Positions 33,652 to 38,389 of a stretch of DNA of 64,000 bases are shown here, in pieces. The notes beneath the pieces were generated by a model, which had not been told where the DNA came from, searched no databases, and worked only from the letters and a program-made list of their open reading frames with translations. Both the position numbers and the translations under genes were made by a program. This DNA is from an uncultured Lentisphaeria bacterium (GTDB lineage: Bacteria; Verrucomicrobiota; Lentisphaeria; Victivallales; UBA1829). Where the stretch lies: contig CASEFP010000014.1 of NCBI GenBank assembly GCA_949287225.1, forward strand, positions 1 to 64,000, written 5' to 3'. Position 1 is the first letter of the stretch; each line of letters begins with the position of its first letter.

Positions 33652-33679
33652 TTGCAAGTTGGCCGAAGTGATGTATATT
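33652..33679 (+). promoter_or_regulatory. Candidate promoter of the Mla-type unit
   Basis: TTGCAA (33652-33657), 16 bases, TATATT (33674-33679), 48 bases before the start at 33727; spacing and hexamers are plausible. Confidence 0.45.
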
Positions 33680-33726: not shown

Positions 33727-35154
33727 ATGAAATGCTCTGTTTTTGCGCTGCTGCTTCCGGCACTTCTTTCCGTCACGGGAGCGGAAAAACCTGCCGCATC
33801 CCCGGGCGGGGAGAATCCGGTACTCCGGATCAATCTTCCGCCGCTCGTGGTTTACGAACCGGACAATCCCGTAACCGGAAAAAAGAACCGCCTGCGCATT
33901 CTGGGACCGCTGTTCGAGTCAAGCAGGAATGCCGAAGGCACTTCGATGGCGGCGCTGCGCCCGCTCTGGAGCACGGAAACCAGACCGGACGGACGTTCCG
34001 CAACCGATGTAATCTGGCCGCTTTCGATGTACCGGAACACGCGCTCGGGGAGCTACTTCTGGCTCCTGCCCTACTTCACGACGCGTGGGAAAAACGATTC
34101 TTATGAACACTATCTCTTTCCCTTCTGGTTTCTGGAACGTCACACGGACGGGAAATATTCCTGGTTCTTTTTTCCCTTCTATGGCGACATGCGCAAATTC
34201 TTCTCCTATGACAGGCTTGAGTTCATCCTGTTTCCGCTCTACAAATACGGGGAAAAGAATCATGTCGTCACCAACACGTATCTCTGGCCGTTCTTCAGCC
34301 GCGACCGGGCGCCGGGAATGCACTCCATCCGGATCTTTCCCTTCTATGCGTCGCGCACGTTTGAAGGCATCCGGGTCAACCGCTCGATTCTCTGGCCGGT
34401 TGCAAACTACGCGTATTCCCTGAAAAATCCGGAAGACTTCGCGTTTTTCTCGTTCCCGTTCGGCGGCTACGAGAGCTGGGGCGGCATTACAAACATCACT
34501 GTTCTGCCGTCGGTATTCTCCTGGAAGGAGTTTCAGGACCGCCAGATGGCGCTGAGCATTCTGTGGCCGCTCTTCAAATACGGCGGCGACGAGGAGGGCG
34601 GAGAGTGTCTCTACTTCTGGCCGTTCTGGGGCAAGGCTGTCTCGGATCAGGCGTATTATTCCTTCTTTCTCTGGCCGATGGGGCTGAATCTCCAGACAAC
34701 GACGCAAACAAGGAAAACAACACGGCGCGCATTTCTGCCGTTCTACCTGAGCAGCCGCAAAAATGAAATTCCGGACGGAGAAATGCTCTCGGACTACATC
34801 CATCTCTGGCCGTTCGTCTCGAAATATGCAGCTGGAGAAAAAACGGAAATCCGGGGACTGGATTTCATTCCGATGAAGCGCCTCGGCTTCGCGGAGCGGA
34901 ACTATGCGGCGTTCTGGCGGCTTTTCGAAGTGGAACAAAATGAAAGGGGATTCGCGTTCGACATCCTCTGGGGGCTCTCGCGCGGCTACCGCACGGAGAA
35001 TGCGGACGGATTTTCCATCGGACCGTTTTATGCACAGGACCGTTCCGGCGACGGGAAGAGCGATTACGATATTCTGTTCGGACTGCTCCGGATCGGGAAG
35101 AGGGCGGAAAATACGCACGTGAGTTTGTTTTACTGCCTTGATTTTTCGCTGTAA
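33727..35154 (+). CDS. Exported repeat protein with recurring WP/FP motifs, function unknown
   Basis: 475 residues with a signal peptide (about 1-18). From about residue 70 to the end a short motif of an aliphatic or aromatic residue, then Trp or Phe, Pro and an aromatic or aliphatic residue recurs every 20-30 residues: VIWPLS, LFPFWF, FFFPFY, LFPLYK, LWPFFS, IFPFYA, LWPVAN, FSFPFG, LWPLFK, FWPFWG, LWPMGL, FLPFYL, LWPFVS, then degenerate ILWGLS and IGPFYA. Between motifs lie charged turns. This suggests a repeated beta-hairpin fold, possibly on the periplasmic or outer-membrane side. I do not recognise the family. AAGGAG lies nine bases before the ATG. It is followed at 48 bases by the Mla-type ABC genes on the same strand, which suggests an envelope role. 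Confidence 0.75.
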   Translation: MKCSVFALLLPALLSVTGAEKPAASPGGENPVLRINLPPLVVYEPDNPVTGKKNRLRILGPLFESSRNAEGTSMAALRPLWSTETRPDGRSATDVIWPLSMYRNTRSGSYFWLLPYFTTRGKNDSYEHYLFPFWFLERHTDGKYSWFFFPFYGDMRKFFSYDRLEFILFPLYKYGEKNHVVTNTYLWPFFSRDRAPGMHSIRIFPFYASRTFEGIRVNRSILWPVANYAYSLKNPEDFAFFSFPFGGYESWGGITNITVLPSVFSWKEFQDRQMALSILWPLFKYGGDEEGGECLYFWPFWGKAVSDQAYYSFFLWPMGLNLQTTTQTRKTTRRAFLPFYLSSRKNEIPDGEMLSDYIHLWPFVSKYAAGEKTEIRGLDFIPMKRLGFAERNYAAFWRLFEVEQNERGFAFDILWGLSRGYRTENADGFSIGPFYAQDRSGDGKSDYDILFGLLRIGKRAENTHVSLFYCLDFSL

Positions 35155-35202: not shown

Positions 35203-35973
35203 ATGAACAAACAGGTTTTTGTATTCGGAAAAGGCGTCATAGAGTATCTGGCGCAGGTCGGGAGCGGGGTCAGGATGATCGCGCTCGCCTTCTGCTTCCT
35301 GCCGACGCTCCGGCACAGCCGCCGGGAGGTCTACCGGCAGATGATGCTCTGCGGAGTGCGCAGTTTCGGCGTGACGTCGGTGGTGGCGCTGTTCACGGGA
35401 ATGATCCTGTCACTTCAGGCGGGGCTGATCCTGAAGACCTACGGTCAGGAAATGCGCGTCGGTTTTCTGGTGGCGCAGACGATGTTCCGGGAGATGGGGC
35501 CGTTCATGACGGCACTGATTCTTGCGGCGAGTGTCGGATCCGGCATGGCGGCGCTGCTCGGGACGATGAAGGTCTCGCAGGAGCTGGCGGCGCTGGAGGT
35601 GATGTCGATCCATCCGGTGCGTTTTCTGGTTGCGCCGCGGCTGCTCGCGATGATGGTGATGTGCCCGGTGCTGACGATGTACACGGATCTGATCGGGATT
35701 CTCGGCGGGGGGCTCGTCGCCTATACGCAGCTCGGCGTCGGCTGGATCATGTATTTCGACAATGTGCGCTTCATGCTCTATGAGAAGGAGCTGTGGGTCG
35801 GTATCTTCAAGGCGTGGGTGTTCGCGATTCTGATCGTGGCGATCAGCTGCCATCAGGGGATGACGGCGCGCGACGGCGCGGTCGGCGTCGGTCTGGCGAC
35901 GAAAAGATCGGTGGTCATCTGCTTTCTGGTGATTCTGATCGTCGGATATATCATAACGAGGATGTTCTACTGA
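35203..35973 (+). CDS. mlaE: MlaE-type ABC transporter permease (lipid transport)
   Basis: 256 residues, the MlaE/YrbE family size, with five or six membrane helices. Typical segments: VVALFTGMILSLQAGLILK, FREMGPFMTALILAASVGSGMAA, and LAALEVMSIHPVRFLVAPRLLAMMVMCP. It forms the inner-membrane permease dimer that moves phospholipid between inner membrane and the MCE protein. GGAG near the ATG at 35203. Its stop overlaps the MlaF start by one base (TGATG). Confidence 0.93.
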   Translation: MNKQVFVFGKGVIEYLAQVGSGVRMIALAFCFLPTLRHSRREVYRQMMLCGVRSFGVTSVVALFTGMILSLQAGLILKTYGQEMRVGFLVAQTMFREMGPFMTALILAASVGSGMAALLGTMKVSQELAALEVMSIHPVRFLVAPRLLAMMVMCPVLTMYTDLIGILGGGLVAYTQLGVGWIMYFDNVRFMLYEKELWVGIFKAWVFAILIVAISCHQGMTARDGAVGVGLATKRSVVICFLVILIVGYIITRMFY

Positions 35974-36722
35974 TGATTACGTTCCGCAATGTGGAAAAGT
36001 CGCTCGGGGGGCGCAAAATTCTGGACAAACTCTCCTTTCATGTGAACGAGGGCGAGACCTTCATGCTGGTCGGACCGTCAGGCACGGGGAAGTCGGTCAC
36101 GCTCTCGCACATCATCGGGCTGATGCGCCCGGATGCGGGGAGCGTGATCGTCGACGGCCTCCATGTGGAGACCATGCGCAGAAAGGAACTTGAATCGCTG
36201 CGGCTCCGGACAGGAATGCTCTTTCAGGGCGGCGCGCTGATGAACTGGATGAACATCTACGACAACGTCGCGCTGCCGCTTCGCGAACGCTACCGTTACA
36301 CGGAGGAGGAGATCCGGAAAAAGGTCATGGAGATCCTTGTCTTCCTGGAGCTGGAGGACTCCATGTACAAGATGCCCGGAGAAATTTCGGGAGGCATGGT
36401 GAAGCGGGCGGGCCTTGCACGGGCGGTGGTCTGCGAACCGAAGATCATGCTCTACGACGAGCCGACCTCCGGCCTCGACCCGGTGATGTCGCGCAAGATC
36501 GACGGACTGATCGACCTCCTGAAACGGGAGTTTCACATGACCTCGGTGGTGGTCACGCACGATCTGGTCAGCGCCCTGAACATCGGGGACACCGTAGCAA
36601 TGCTTTACGAGGGGCGGGTGATCGAGTGCGCGCCCCCGAAAACATTCATGAAAAGTGAAAATCCGCTTGTGAGGGAGTTCATCACGGCGCAATTCCATAC
36701 ACGAAAGGCTGGTGACTTATGA
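35973..36722 (+). CDS. mlaF: MlaF-type ABC transporter ATP-binding protein
   Basis: 249 residues. Walker A LVGPSGTGKSVTLSHI, Q-loop MLFQGGALMNWM, signature ISGGMVKRAGLARA (the GGM form typical of MlaF), Walker B IMLYDEPTSGLDPV, switch His VVVTHDL. Powers lipid movement with MlaE. Upstream overlap with mlaE by one base and downstream ATGA overlap with mlaD show a tight operon. Confidence 0.94.
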   Translation: MITFRNVEKSLGGRKILDKLSFHVNEGETFMLVGPSGTGKSVTLSHIIGLMRPDAGSVIVDGLHVETMRRKELESLRLRTGMLFQGGALMNWMNIYDNVALPLRERYRYTEEEIRKKVMEILVFLELEDSMYKMPGEISGGMVKRAGLARAVVCEPKIMLYDEPTSGLDPVMSRKIDGLIDLLKREFHMTSVVVTHDLVSALNIGDTVAMLYEGRVIECAPPKTFMKSENPLVREFITAQFHTRKAGDL

Positions 36723-37795
36723 ATCTGTTCAACCGGAAACGCAATCTGCTGCTGTCCGCGGAGTTCCTGACGGGACTCTTCTGCATCGGCGCGCTCTGCA
36801 TTCTCTTCTACTTCACGGTTATCATCCGGGGAAAGGATTACTTCGACACGCGGAAACACTTCTACATCTCCGCGCGCTTCCCGCACGCGAGCACGCTTGC
36901 CGTGAACGACAAGGTCAAGGTGATCGGCGTCGAGATGGGAACGGTGGACTCGCTGGAACTCGCGCCCGGCAACAACGCCGTCATCGTGAGGATGAAACTC
37001 CGCAGGGATATTCCGATCTACAAGGGATACGAAATGCTGATCCAGAACTCCTCGGTCTTCGGCGGCGCGTATGTGAACATCAATCCCGGAAAATCCGAAG
37101 GAGAGCCCCTGCCCCCGGACACGGTGTTTGACGGACTCCAGCCGATCGACATCATCAAGGAGGCGTCCGAACTGCTCGCGGCTTTCCGCGAGGATGAAAA
37201 ATATTTTCGCGAGGTGATTCTCGAAGGCGGCGTGCTGGAGAAGATCCGCGACGCCCTGAAAAGCCTGGAGAAAAACGCCGAAAATCTCAATGACATCTGC
37301 ACGGAAATCAAGGCAGGCAAAGGAACATTGGGAAAACTTTTCACAGATCCGGCTTTTTATGTGGATGCACAGAAAGCCTTCGTTGAACTTTCGGCGGTCT
37401 CGAAGAAATTCGACACGGTTCTTGCCGAGGTGCAGTCGGGTAAAGGAACGCTAGGCAAACTTCTGAATGACGAGGAGGCCTACCGTGAAATGACCTTTTT
37501 CATGAAAAACATGAATGCGTTCGCCGCGAAACTGAATGCGGACAAGGGGAGTCTGGCCAGACTCATGCTTGATGACGGGCGCTTCTATGAAAATCTGAAT
37601 TCGACTCTGGAAAATCTGGATAAGCTGGCAAAAATGATGAACAATGAAAAGGGGACGCTGAACCGCCTTCTGGTCGACGACTCCCTTTACAATGAAATGC
37701 GCGACACGGTCAAGGCGATCCGGTCCGCGGTGGACGATCTGCGGGAGATGGCGCCGGTCGCCACGTTCGGCAGCGTCCTGCTCGGCGCGCTCTGA
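36719..37795 (+). CDS. mlaD: MlaD-type MCE-domain lipid-binding protein with repeated C-terminal helices
   Basis: 358 residues. N-terminal membrane anchor (about 10-35). MCE domain about 45-130 (FPHASTLAVNDKVKVIGVEM, SSVFGGAYVNINPG). The C-terminal half is helical and carries four units with the motif GKGTLGKLL-x-D: at about residues 200, 240, 274 and 310 (the last two DKGSLARLM and EKGTLNRLL), each followed by Tyr and about 30 helical residues. Long C-terminal helices of MCE proteins form channels or needles in the periplasm. Part of the mla operon by 4-base overlap. Confidence 0.92.
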   Translation: MNLFNRKRNLLLSAEFLTGLFCIGALCILFYFTVIIRGKDYFDTRKHFYISARFPHASTLAVNDKVKVIGVEMGTVDSLELAPGNNAVIVRMKLRRDIPIYKGYEMLIQNSSVFGGAYVNINPGKSEGEPLPPDTVFDGLQPIDIIKEASELLAAFREDEKYFREVILEGGVLEKIRDALKSLEKNAENLNDICTEIKAGKGTLGKLFTDPAFYVDAQKAFVELSAVSKKFDTVLAEVQSGKGTLGKLLNDEEAYREMTFFMKNMNAFAAKLNADKGSLARLMLDDGRFYENLNSTLENLDKLAKMMNNEKGTLNRLLVDDSLYNEMRDTVKAIRSAVDDLREMAPVATFGSVLLGAL

Positions 37796-37834: not shown

Positions 37835-38389
37835 ATGAAAACGTCCCGAATCCTGTCCGTCCTTGCCGCCGGAATCACTGCCGTCTTTCTGACCGGCGCA
37901 ACCTCGTGTGAGGAGGCGCTCAACAATCCTGACGCCTATTTCGACAATGAGATTGACCAGACGCCGAGCTATGTCATTACTCTGCATGACATTATCAAAT
38001 ACCGGCGCGGCGACATGATGGAAAAGGAGGTTGAGTCCTTTTCCGGCGGAACGGTCTGCGTCAACCGCAACTCCTACTTGCATTCGCGTGACATCATGAA
38101 AATCGGAATGGTGCAGAGAAAGAGTGATCCGGAATTCTTTGATCTTGTCATCACGCTGACGGAACGCGGACAGAGAATCTGGAGTGCCCTCTCGGTCAAT
38201 ATGCGGGCGAAAGGCAGTGCCACGGAACTTGCTTTCATTATCGACGGGATGTACTACCGCTCCTTCAAACCGGAATTGATCACGGATAACGAAACCATGG
38301 TTGTGACGATTGAGGGTCCGTTTGATCCGGCGACGGCGAACGGACTTGTCAAGAACGCCGAACGCAACTATAAGATCTTCAATAAATAA
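37835..38389 (+). CDS. Small exported SecD-P1-like protein, function unknown
   Basis: 184 residues. A signal sequence ends near LTGATSC, a lipobox-like site with Cys at about residue 25. The mature part contains FFDLVITLTERGQRIWSALS and ELAFIIDGMYYRSF, followed by MVVTIEGPFDPATANGLVKN. This order (ITLTxxG, aliphatic IDG, IEGxF, A-x-x-L) resembles the periplasmic head subdomain of SecD, but the rest of SecD is absent. The resemblance is read by eye. GGAGG is seven bases before the ATG. It follows MlaD by 39 bases and is the last gene of the unit, so a role in the same envelope pathway is likely but not proven. Confidence 0.6.
   Translation: MKTSRILSVLAAGITAVFLTGATSCEEALNNPDAYFDNEIDQTPSYVITLHDIIKYRRGDMMEKEVESFSGGTVCVNRNSYLHSRDIMKIGMVQRKSDPEFFDLVITLTERGQRIWSALSVNMRAKGSATELAFIIDGMYYRSFKPELITDNETMVVTIEGPFDPATANGLVKNAERNYKIFNK

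Follow-up and report, generated by a model that had tools for sequence, protein, structure and literature searches.

MlaEFD is regarded as the ancestral route of phospholipid traffic in diderm bacteria, and its reach to the outer membrane outside the Proteobacteria is mostly unclear. In the six-part Mla system of Escherichia coli, it is MlaC and MlaA-OmpC that act between MlaD and the outer membrane. A published survey (PMC10665443) describes an outer-membrane barrel fused to MlaD in Veillonella, gives MlaA as mostly proteobacterial, and reports PVC MlaD proteins as being without the C-terminal beta-barrel of their counterparts in diderm Terrabacteria and some Proteobacteria. In the Pqi system, the MCE protein PqiB is accompanied by a separately encoded outer-membrane lipoprotein, PqiC.

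Here, we describe a locus of an uncultured Lentisphaeria bacterium (assembly GCA_949287225.1) in which a gene for an exported repeat protein heads a set of mlaEFD genes. The window, which is the whole stretch of DNA that was analysed, covers the first 64,000 nucleotides of contig CASEFP010000014.1, and the features of the locus are collected in Table 1.

Table 1. Features of the repeat gene and mlaEFD unit in the window
Feature	Position	Strand	Basis or remark
Gene for exported 'WPF-repeat' protein, 475 aa, ~24 units	33727..35154	+	First gene of the unit
Predicted Sec signal peptide MKCSVFALLLPALLSVTGA	33727..33783	+	Read from sequence
~24 repeat units, 17-21 aa each, core F-x-L-W/F-P-F-Y	33826..35148	+	102-sequence alignment, covariation, AlphaFold fragment
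mlaE, ABC permease, repeat-associated clade ('type 2')	35203..35973	+	PF02405 E=4.8e-65
mlaF, ABC ATPase	35973..36722	+	PF00005 E=2.1e-28; 1-nt overlap with mlaE stop
mlaD, long MCE protein, 358 aa, extended C-terminal region	36719..37795	+	PF02470 E=3.9e-16; 4-nt overlap with mlaF
Conserved MlaD C-terminal tail REMAPVATFGSVLLGAL-COOH, typical of repeat-associated MlaD	37742..37792	+	C-termini compared

The repeat gene opens with an ATG, directly preceded by the Shine-Dalgarno sequence AGAAGGAG, and closes with a stop codon at 35152-35154; mlaE, mlaF and mlaD follow directly on the same strand, as the preliminary description had said. The promoter that it considered plausible is at chance level, with three promoter-like sites near the gene (among them TTGCAA-16-TATATT at 33652) against 2.5 expected. 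The operon encodes the parts of an MlaEFD/MCE transporter, namely a PF02405 permease and a PF02470 MCE protein with an adjoining PF00005 ATPase. The top NCBIfam match of the ATPase is MlaF, under its cut-off.

With the Veillonella parvula-type MlaEFD (PMC10665443) the locus shares a three-gene mlaEFD core, a long MlaD and, throughout the window's family, the lack of MlaC. The two differ in that V. parvula MlaD has its own C-terminal outer-membrane beta-barrel, whereas inspection of the window MlaD finds no such barrel, only a short conserved hydrophobic tail straight after the extended region, and a separate repeat gene stands first. The likeness to Pqi lies in the pairing of an MCE protein with a separately encoded exported partner, which in some repeat-protein members is a lipoprotein; the repeat protein has no sequence match to PqiC and has 24 units, and the window encodes the ABC-type MlaE and MlaF where Pqi has PqiA. 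Compared with E. coli, the repeat protein would take the same step as MlaA-OmpC and MlaC, to which it is unrelated in sequence. Since PVC MlaD is reported to be without an outer-membrane beta-barrel (PMC10665443), such a partner would fill a real gap.

We searched the 36 genomes of the window's family for the remaining E. coli components. MlaC (PF05494) was found in none of them, with the control detected in E. coli and Caulobacter, and MlaA (PF04333) was found in 35, with or without the repeat protein, in long open frames of ~700 aa in most. As nearly every family genome has an MlaA-like protein, such a protein might serve the outer-membrane end; as it occurs whether or not the repeat protein is there, it is more likely part of the other Mla system of these genomes, or of both. 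The statement that periplasmic and outer-membrane partners are not seen in the window is right for the window itself, but the same genome encodes an MlaA-like protein elsewhere. This is a separate 694-aa fusion (contig C110, 2379-4463, minus strand) in which an MlaA domain (PF04333) with a lipobox is joined to a C-terminal alpha/beta hydrolase of the Abhydrolase_6 type carrying G-Y-S-L-G-G.

Besides the mlaE described here, the window's genome has a second, separate copy on contig C100, accompanied by mlaF and mlaD genes of its own and by no repeat gene. The mlaE of the window belongs to a clade set apart from other MlaE. Within the family, the repeat protein occurs in 10 of the 36 genomes, and these ten are the ones with two separate MlaE copies (in one, G021, the two are fragments on different contigs that may be one gene), the others having one or none. 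In all ten, mlaE lies directly 3' of the repeat gene, one contig ending inside mlaE, and the adjacency holds at 31-35% repeat-protein identity and with differing upstream genes. Inside three genera, the presence of the repeat gene and of a second mlaE varies jointly, some of the genomes concerned being incomplete.

The pattern extends to the class and the phylum. A full-length repeat protein was found in 23 of 198 Lentisphaeria genomes, and 22 of these 23 have an MlaE that falls into the clade of the window's own (>=48% identity and E<=1e-69, the next in line being clearly separated at 1e-45); the 23rd, G002, has a contig-edge fragment. The clade occurs in one further Lentisphaeria genome, G042. 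There, the type-2-like MlaE (48%) is accompanied by no detectable repeat protein, and the contig stops after mlaF. The repeat gene and type-2 mlaE are unlinked in ten of the 23 genomes and yet both are present, so linkage does not account for their co-occurrence. Among 388 Verrucomicrobiota genomes, a sample that includes incomplete MAGs, 174 have a repeat-protein match at E<1e-20, and the repeat protein is present in 136 of the 139 with a window-type MlaE (E<1e-55); as the genomes are related, these counts do not represent independent events. Repeat proteins without a close MlaE come mostly from six families whose MlaE diverges more, and the operon is present in all three of these that we inspected. 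Where both positions were listed on the same contig, the two genes are neighbours in 108 of 108 pairs, with gaps under 400 bp in 106 (median 96 bp) and of 419 and 578 bp in the other two. A further 19 pairs lie on different contigs, which breaks in draft genomes may explain.

In neighbourhoods drawn from 40 families, the order repeat gene-mlaE-mlaF-mlaD on one strand is kept in 39, one of which is counted although its sequence ends before mlaD. The homologues are thus not scattered, and the gene lies directly 5' of mlaEFD in all but one family. The partnership of the repeat protein with type-2 MlaEFD is well supported, and is far stronger than the link by position only from which the preliminary description had proposed a missing periplasmic or outer-membrane role; the counts across families and genomes speak for that role, which we infer from them. 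They also indicate that Verrucomicrobiota Mla systems fall into two kinds, which should be studied separately.

It is very improbable, in our judgement, that the protein is a co-transcribed envelope protein, binding the surface or cell wall, that has no direct role in lipid transport and is kept with mlaEFD for shared regulation. Such a reading has in its favour that the function is read from genomic context alone and that Lentisphaeria also have longer proteins with this type of repeat at sites apart from mla genes, but shared regulation gives no account of the co-occurrence of unlinked genes, and mlaEFD is retained while the upstream genes vary among the lineages compared.

A second line of evidence for the partnership comes from MlaD. 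The repeat-associated MlaD proteins end in a hydrophobic tail, typically D-D-F-R-E-T-x-P-x-x-T-F-T-S-x-F-F-G-A-F up to the stop codon. The ending G-x-F/L/M at the stop is shared by 54 of the 57 complete C-termini, and the three exceptions, from divergent families, still end in L-F. The second MlaD of the window's genome ends in ...NPSSVLHGKGREEK, without the conserved tail. The tail is a natural candidate for the site of contact with the repeat protein. Downstream of mlaD, the window has a gene for a small putative lipoprotein (MKTSRILSVLAAGITAVFLTGATSCEE..., 37835-38389, plus strand) that has no Pfam match; tblastn of more distant repeat operons did not find it.

The repeat protein itself belongs to an unnamed family with an unusual repeat. 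Searches against Pfam, NCBIfam and PDB sequences gave zero matches; among other family members, one of 22 had a single ubiquitin-like Pfam match (E=0.039) and none of ten more had any. The closest named relatives share 75% identity (uncultured Victivallales) and 63% (an uncultured Lentisphaeria bacterium), and homologues occur throughout Verrucomicrobiota, the one phylum covered by the search. No relatives were found in viral contigs or among plasmids, and open-licence papers on Verrucomicrobia, Lentisphaerae or Akkermansia yielded nothing on the gene.

Strict matches to the pattern [hydrophobic][W/F/L..]P[F/L/M/V/I/Y/S] number 18 in the protein, compared with 2.1 +/- 1.4 expected and a maximum of eight when the same protein was shuffled 5000 times. 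About fifteen copies, 20-30 residues apart, had been counted initially; an alignment of 102 homologues, through which degenerate units could be placed, revises this to about 24 units at a near-constant spacing of mostly 17-21 residues, with strikingly constant loop lengths. Each unit consists of a short strand A, a WP turn and a short strand B, and its hydrophobic core spans positions -4 to +2 around the proline. A longer internal period of five units, hinted at by glycine positions, gave no clear signal in the same alignment.

To examine the fold, we used mean-field covariation across the 102 homologues (effective number 96). Neighbouring units are strongly coupled in antiparallel fashion (mean 2.25 versus -0.04 +/- 0.22 for the control). 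When the signal is split by side of the proline, the post-proline half of a unit couples to the pre-proline half of the next, B(k)-A(k+1), with z 9.6 (7.9 after separation correction), the two strands of a unit couple across the WP turn, A(k)-B(k), with z 4.8, and A(k)-B(k+1) shows no coupling (z 0.1-1.7). The split pattern therefore indicates a meander of short strands whose turns alternate between W-P and D/G-rich. We had at first taken the covariation to mean that 24 long strands form a meander, and so possibly a barrel, and gave this up once the split had been made.

AlphaFold was run on a 114-aa piece of the 475 residues; the input alignment combined internal repeats of the same protein with three close homologues. 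The model has a pLDDT of 74 (85-90 mid-piece) and a pTM of 0.61. It contains ten strands, each 5-6 residues long, and its pattern of successive hairpins of two short strands agrees, over those 114 residues, with the covariation; the pairing into hairpins is thus supported by computation. A full-length prediction from four sequences was unusable (pLDDT 27). Foldseek with the fragment returned weak matches, including the CPAP G-box (4ld1, TM 0.49) and a viral MORN protein, none at E<=0.001, and neither Foldseek nor the sequence searches matched a known enzyme. Of the folds first suggested, the repeated hairpin stands, and an elongated sheet is likelier than a solenoid, propeller or barrel. A beta-solenoid and a beta-propeller were rejected, as the coupling to the next unit is antiparallel, where a solenoid would have parallel rungs, and there is no regular drop-out of the pairing, which a propeller would lose at every fourth strand.

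The modelled architecture is likely to be an elongated MORN/G-box-like sheet formed by a continuous meander of short beta-hairpins. The resemblance to MORN proteins and the CPAP G-box, which is weak, lies in the predicted six-residue antiparallel strands, successive hairpins and an elongated single sheet (PMC7725318); the MORN repeat has 23 residues and the WPF unit 19, the repeat protein is exported, and the MORN profile PF02493 matched none of the 22 + 10 family members. In MORN proteins of solved structure, each repeat contributes two 6-residue strands, the elongated groove has an aromatic lining, and nine repeats extend over ~80 A (PMC7725318). By this yardstick, which is not a measurement, 24 units would be ~20 nm long.

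An integral outer-membrane beta-barrel serving the Mla system as its lipid port is unlikely, even though the many antiparallel strands, the richness in aromatic residues, a C-terminal strand of the form R-L-L-Y-F-x-R-F/W and the Veillonella precedent of a barrel fused to MlaD (PMC10665443) are what such a port would lead one to expect. A proline-centred turn interrupts nearly all of the would-be long strands, and the covariation lacks the A(k)-B(k+1) signal on which a barrel of long strands would depend. There is no inside/outside alternation, both central faces being hydrophobic, and the loops are symmetric, neither their length nor their charge alternating from one side to the other. Covariation between the first and last units, as expected from barrel closure, gave no clear signal. 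Most homologue C-termini carry a tail beyond the last strand, and the last residue is F, W or Y in only 18 of 102 (the window protein ends in L).

The N-termini count against a barrel as well. The window protein has a Sec-like N-terminus (MKCSVFALLLPALLSVTGA/EK), and about 18 of the 102 homologues, with start codons picked by a simple rule, have a classical lipobox (mostly G-C-A/M/V), the rest resembling ordinary, SPI-like Sec substrates when read by eye. Taken together, the lipoboxes and the tails suit a periplasmic location at the outer-membrane side better than an integral barrel.

On balance, we lean towards the view that the repeat protein is the dedicated exported partner of one of the two Verrucomicrobiota MlaEFD-type transporters, passing phospholipid between MlaD and the outer membrane. 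It would fold as a long twisted sheet of ~46 short antiparallel strands of about six residues, each 19-residue unit forming a hairpin and the L-W-P-F turns running along one long edge. It would sit in the periplasm at the outer-membrane side, held in some lineages by a lipid anchor, where the hydrophobic C-terminal tail of an MlaD assembly projecting from the inner membrane could meet it. Phospholipid would then be handed, through the repeat protein, from the tip of MlaD to the outer membrane or the reverse. Being conserved, unannotated and found with one class of MlaEFD across the phylum, the protein is a concrete candidate for the missing outer-membrane end of the system.

We also regard it as a tentative idea that the protein is a bridge-like lipid conduit with a new fold, in which a single sheet of ~46 strands would offer a hydrophobic groove lined by W-P-F for phospholipid moving between MlaEFD and the outer membrane. 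If so, its length of ~20 nm on MORN geometry would be about the width of the periplasm. TamB-like proteins are proposed lipid conduits, from which this one would differ by its coupling to an ABC transporter.

A structural docking factor, which would anchor or orient the MlaD assembly at the outer membrane without carrying lipid, much as the PqiC toroid sits on PqiB, seems to us possible but rather doubtful. The lipoprotein forms of some members and the conserved MlaD tail would fit it, as would the description of MORN repeats as protein-protein interaction modules and not lipid binders (PMC7725318) and the PqiC precedent (PMC10897342). A continuous L-W-P-F edge of ~24 repeats, however, seems more than a docking ring needs, and there were zero PqiC matches in Pfam or NCBIfam.

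Related proteins and further genes were also seen around these loci. Six Lentisphaeria loci apart from mla genes encode related W-P repeat proteins of ~465 to 1350 aa, several with lipoboxes; at one of the six, L118, the W-P repeat gene is divergent from mlaEFD. In several Lentisphaeria in which the repeat gene is unlinked, a gene resembling Ser/Thr protein kinases, up to ~1200 aa long, follows or flanks type-2 mlaEFD (five loci). In three lineages, a CheY-like receiver gene directly adjoins the repeat gene, and in two of these it lies upstream within the same operon-like run.
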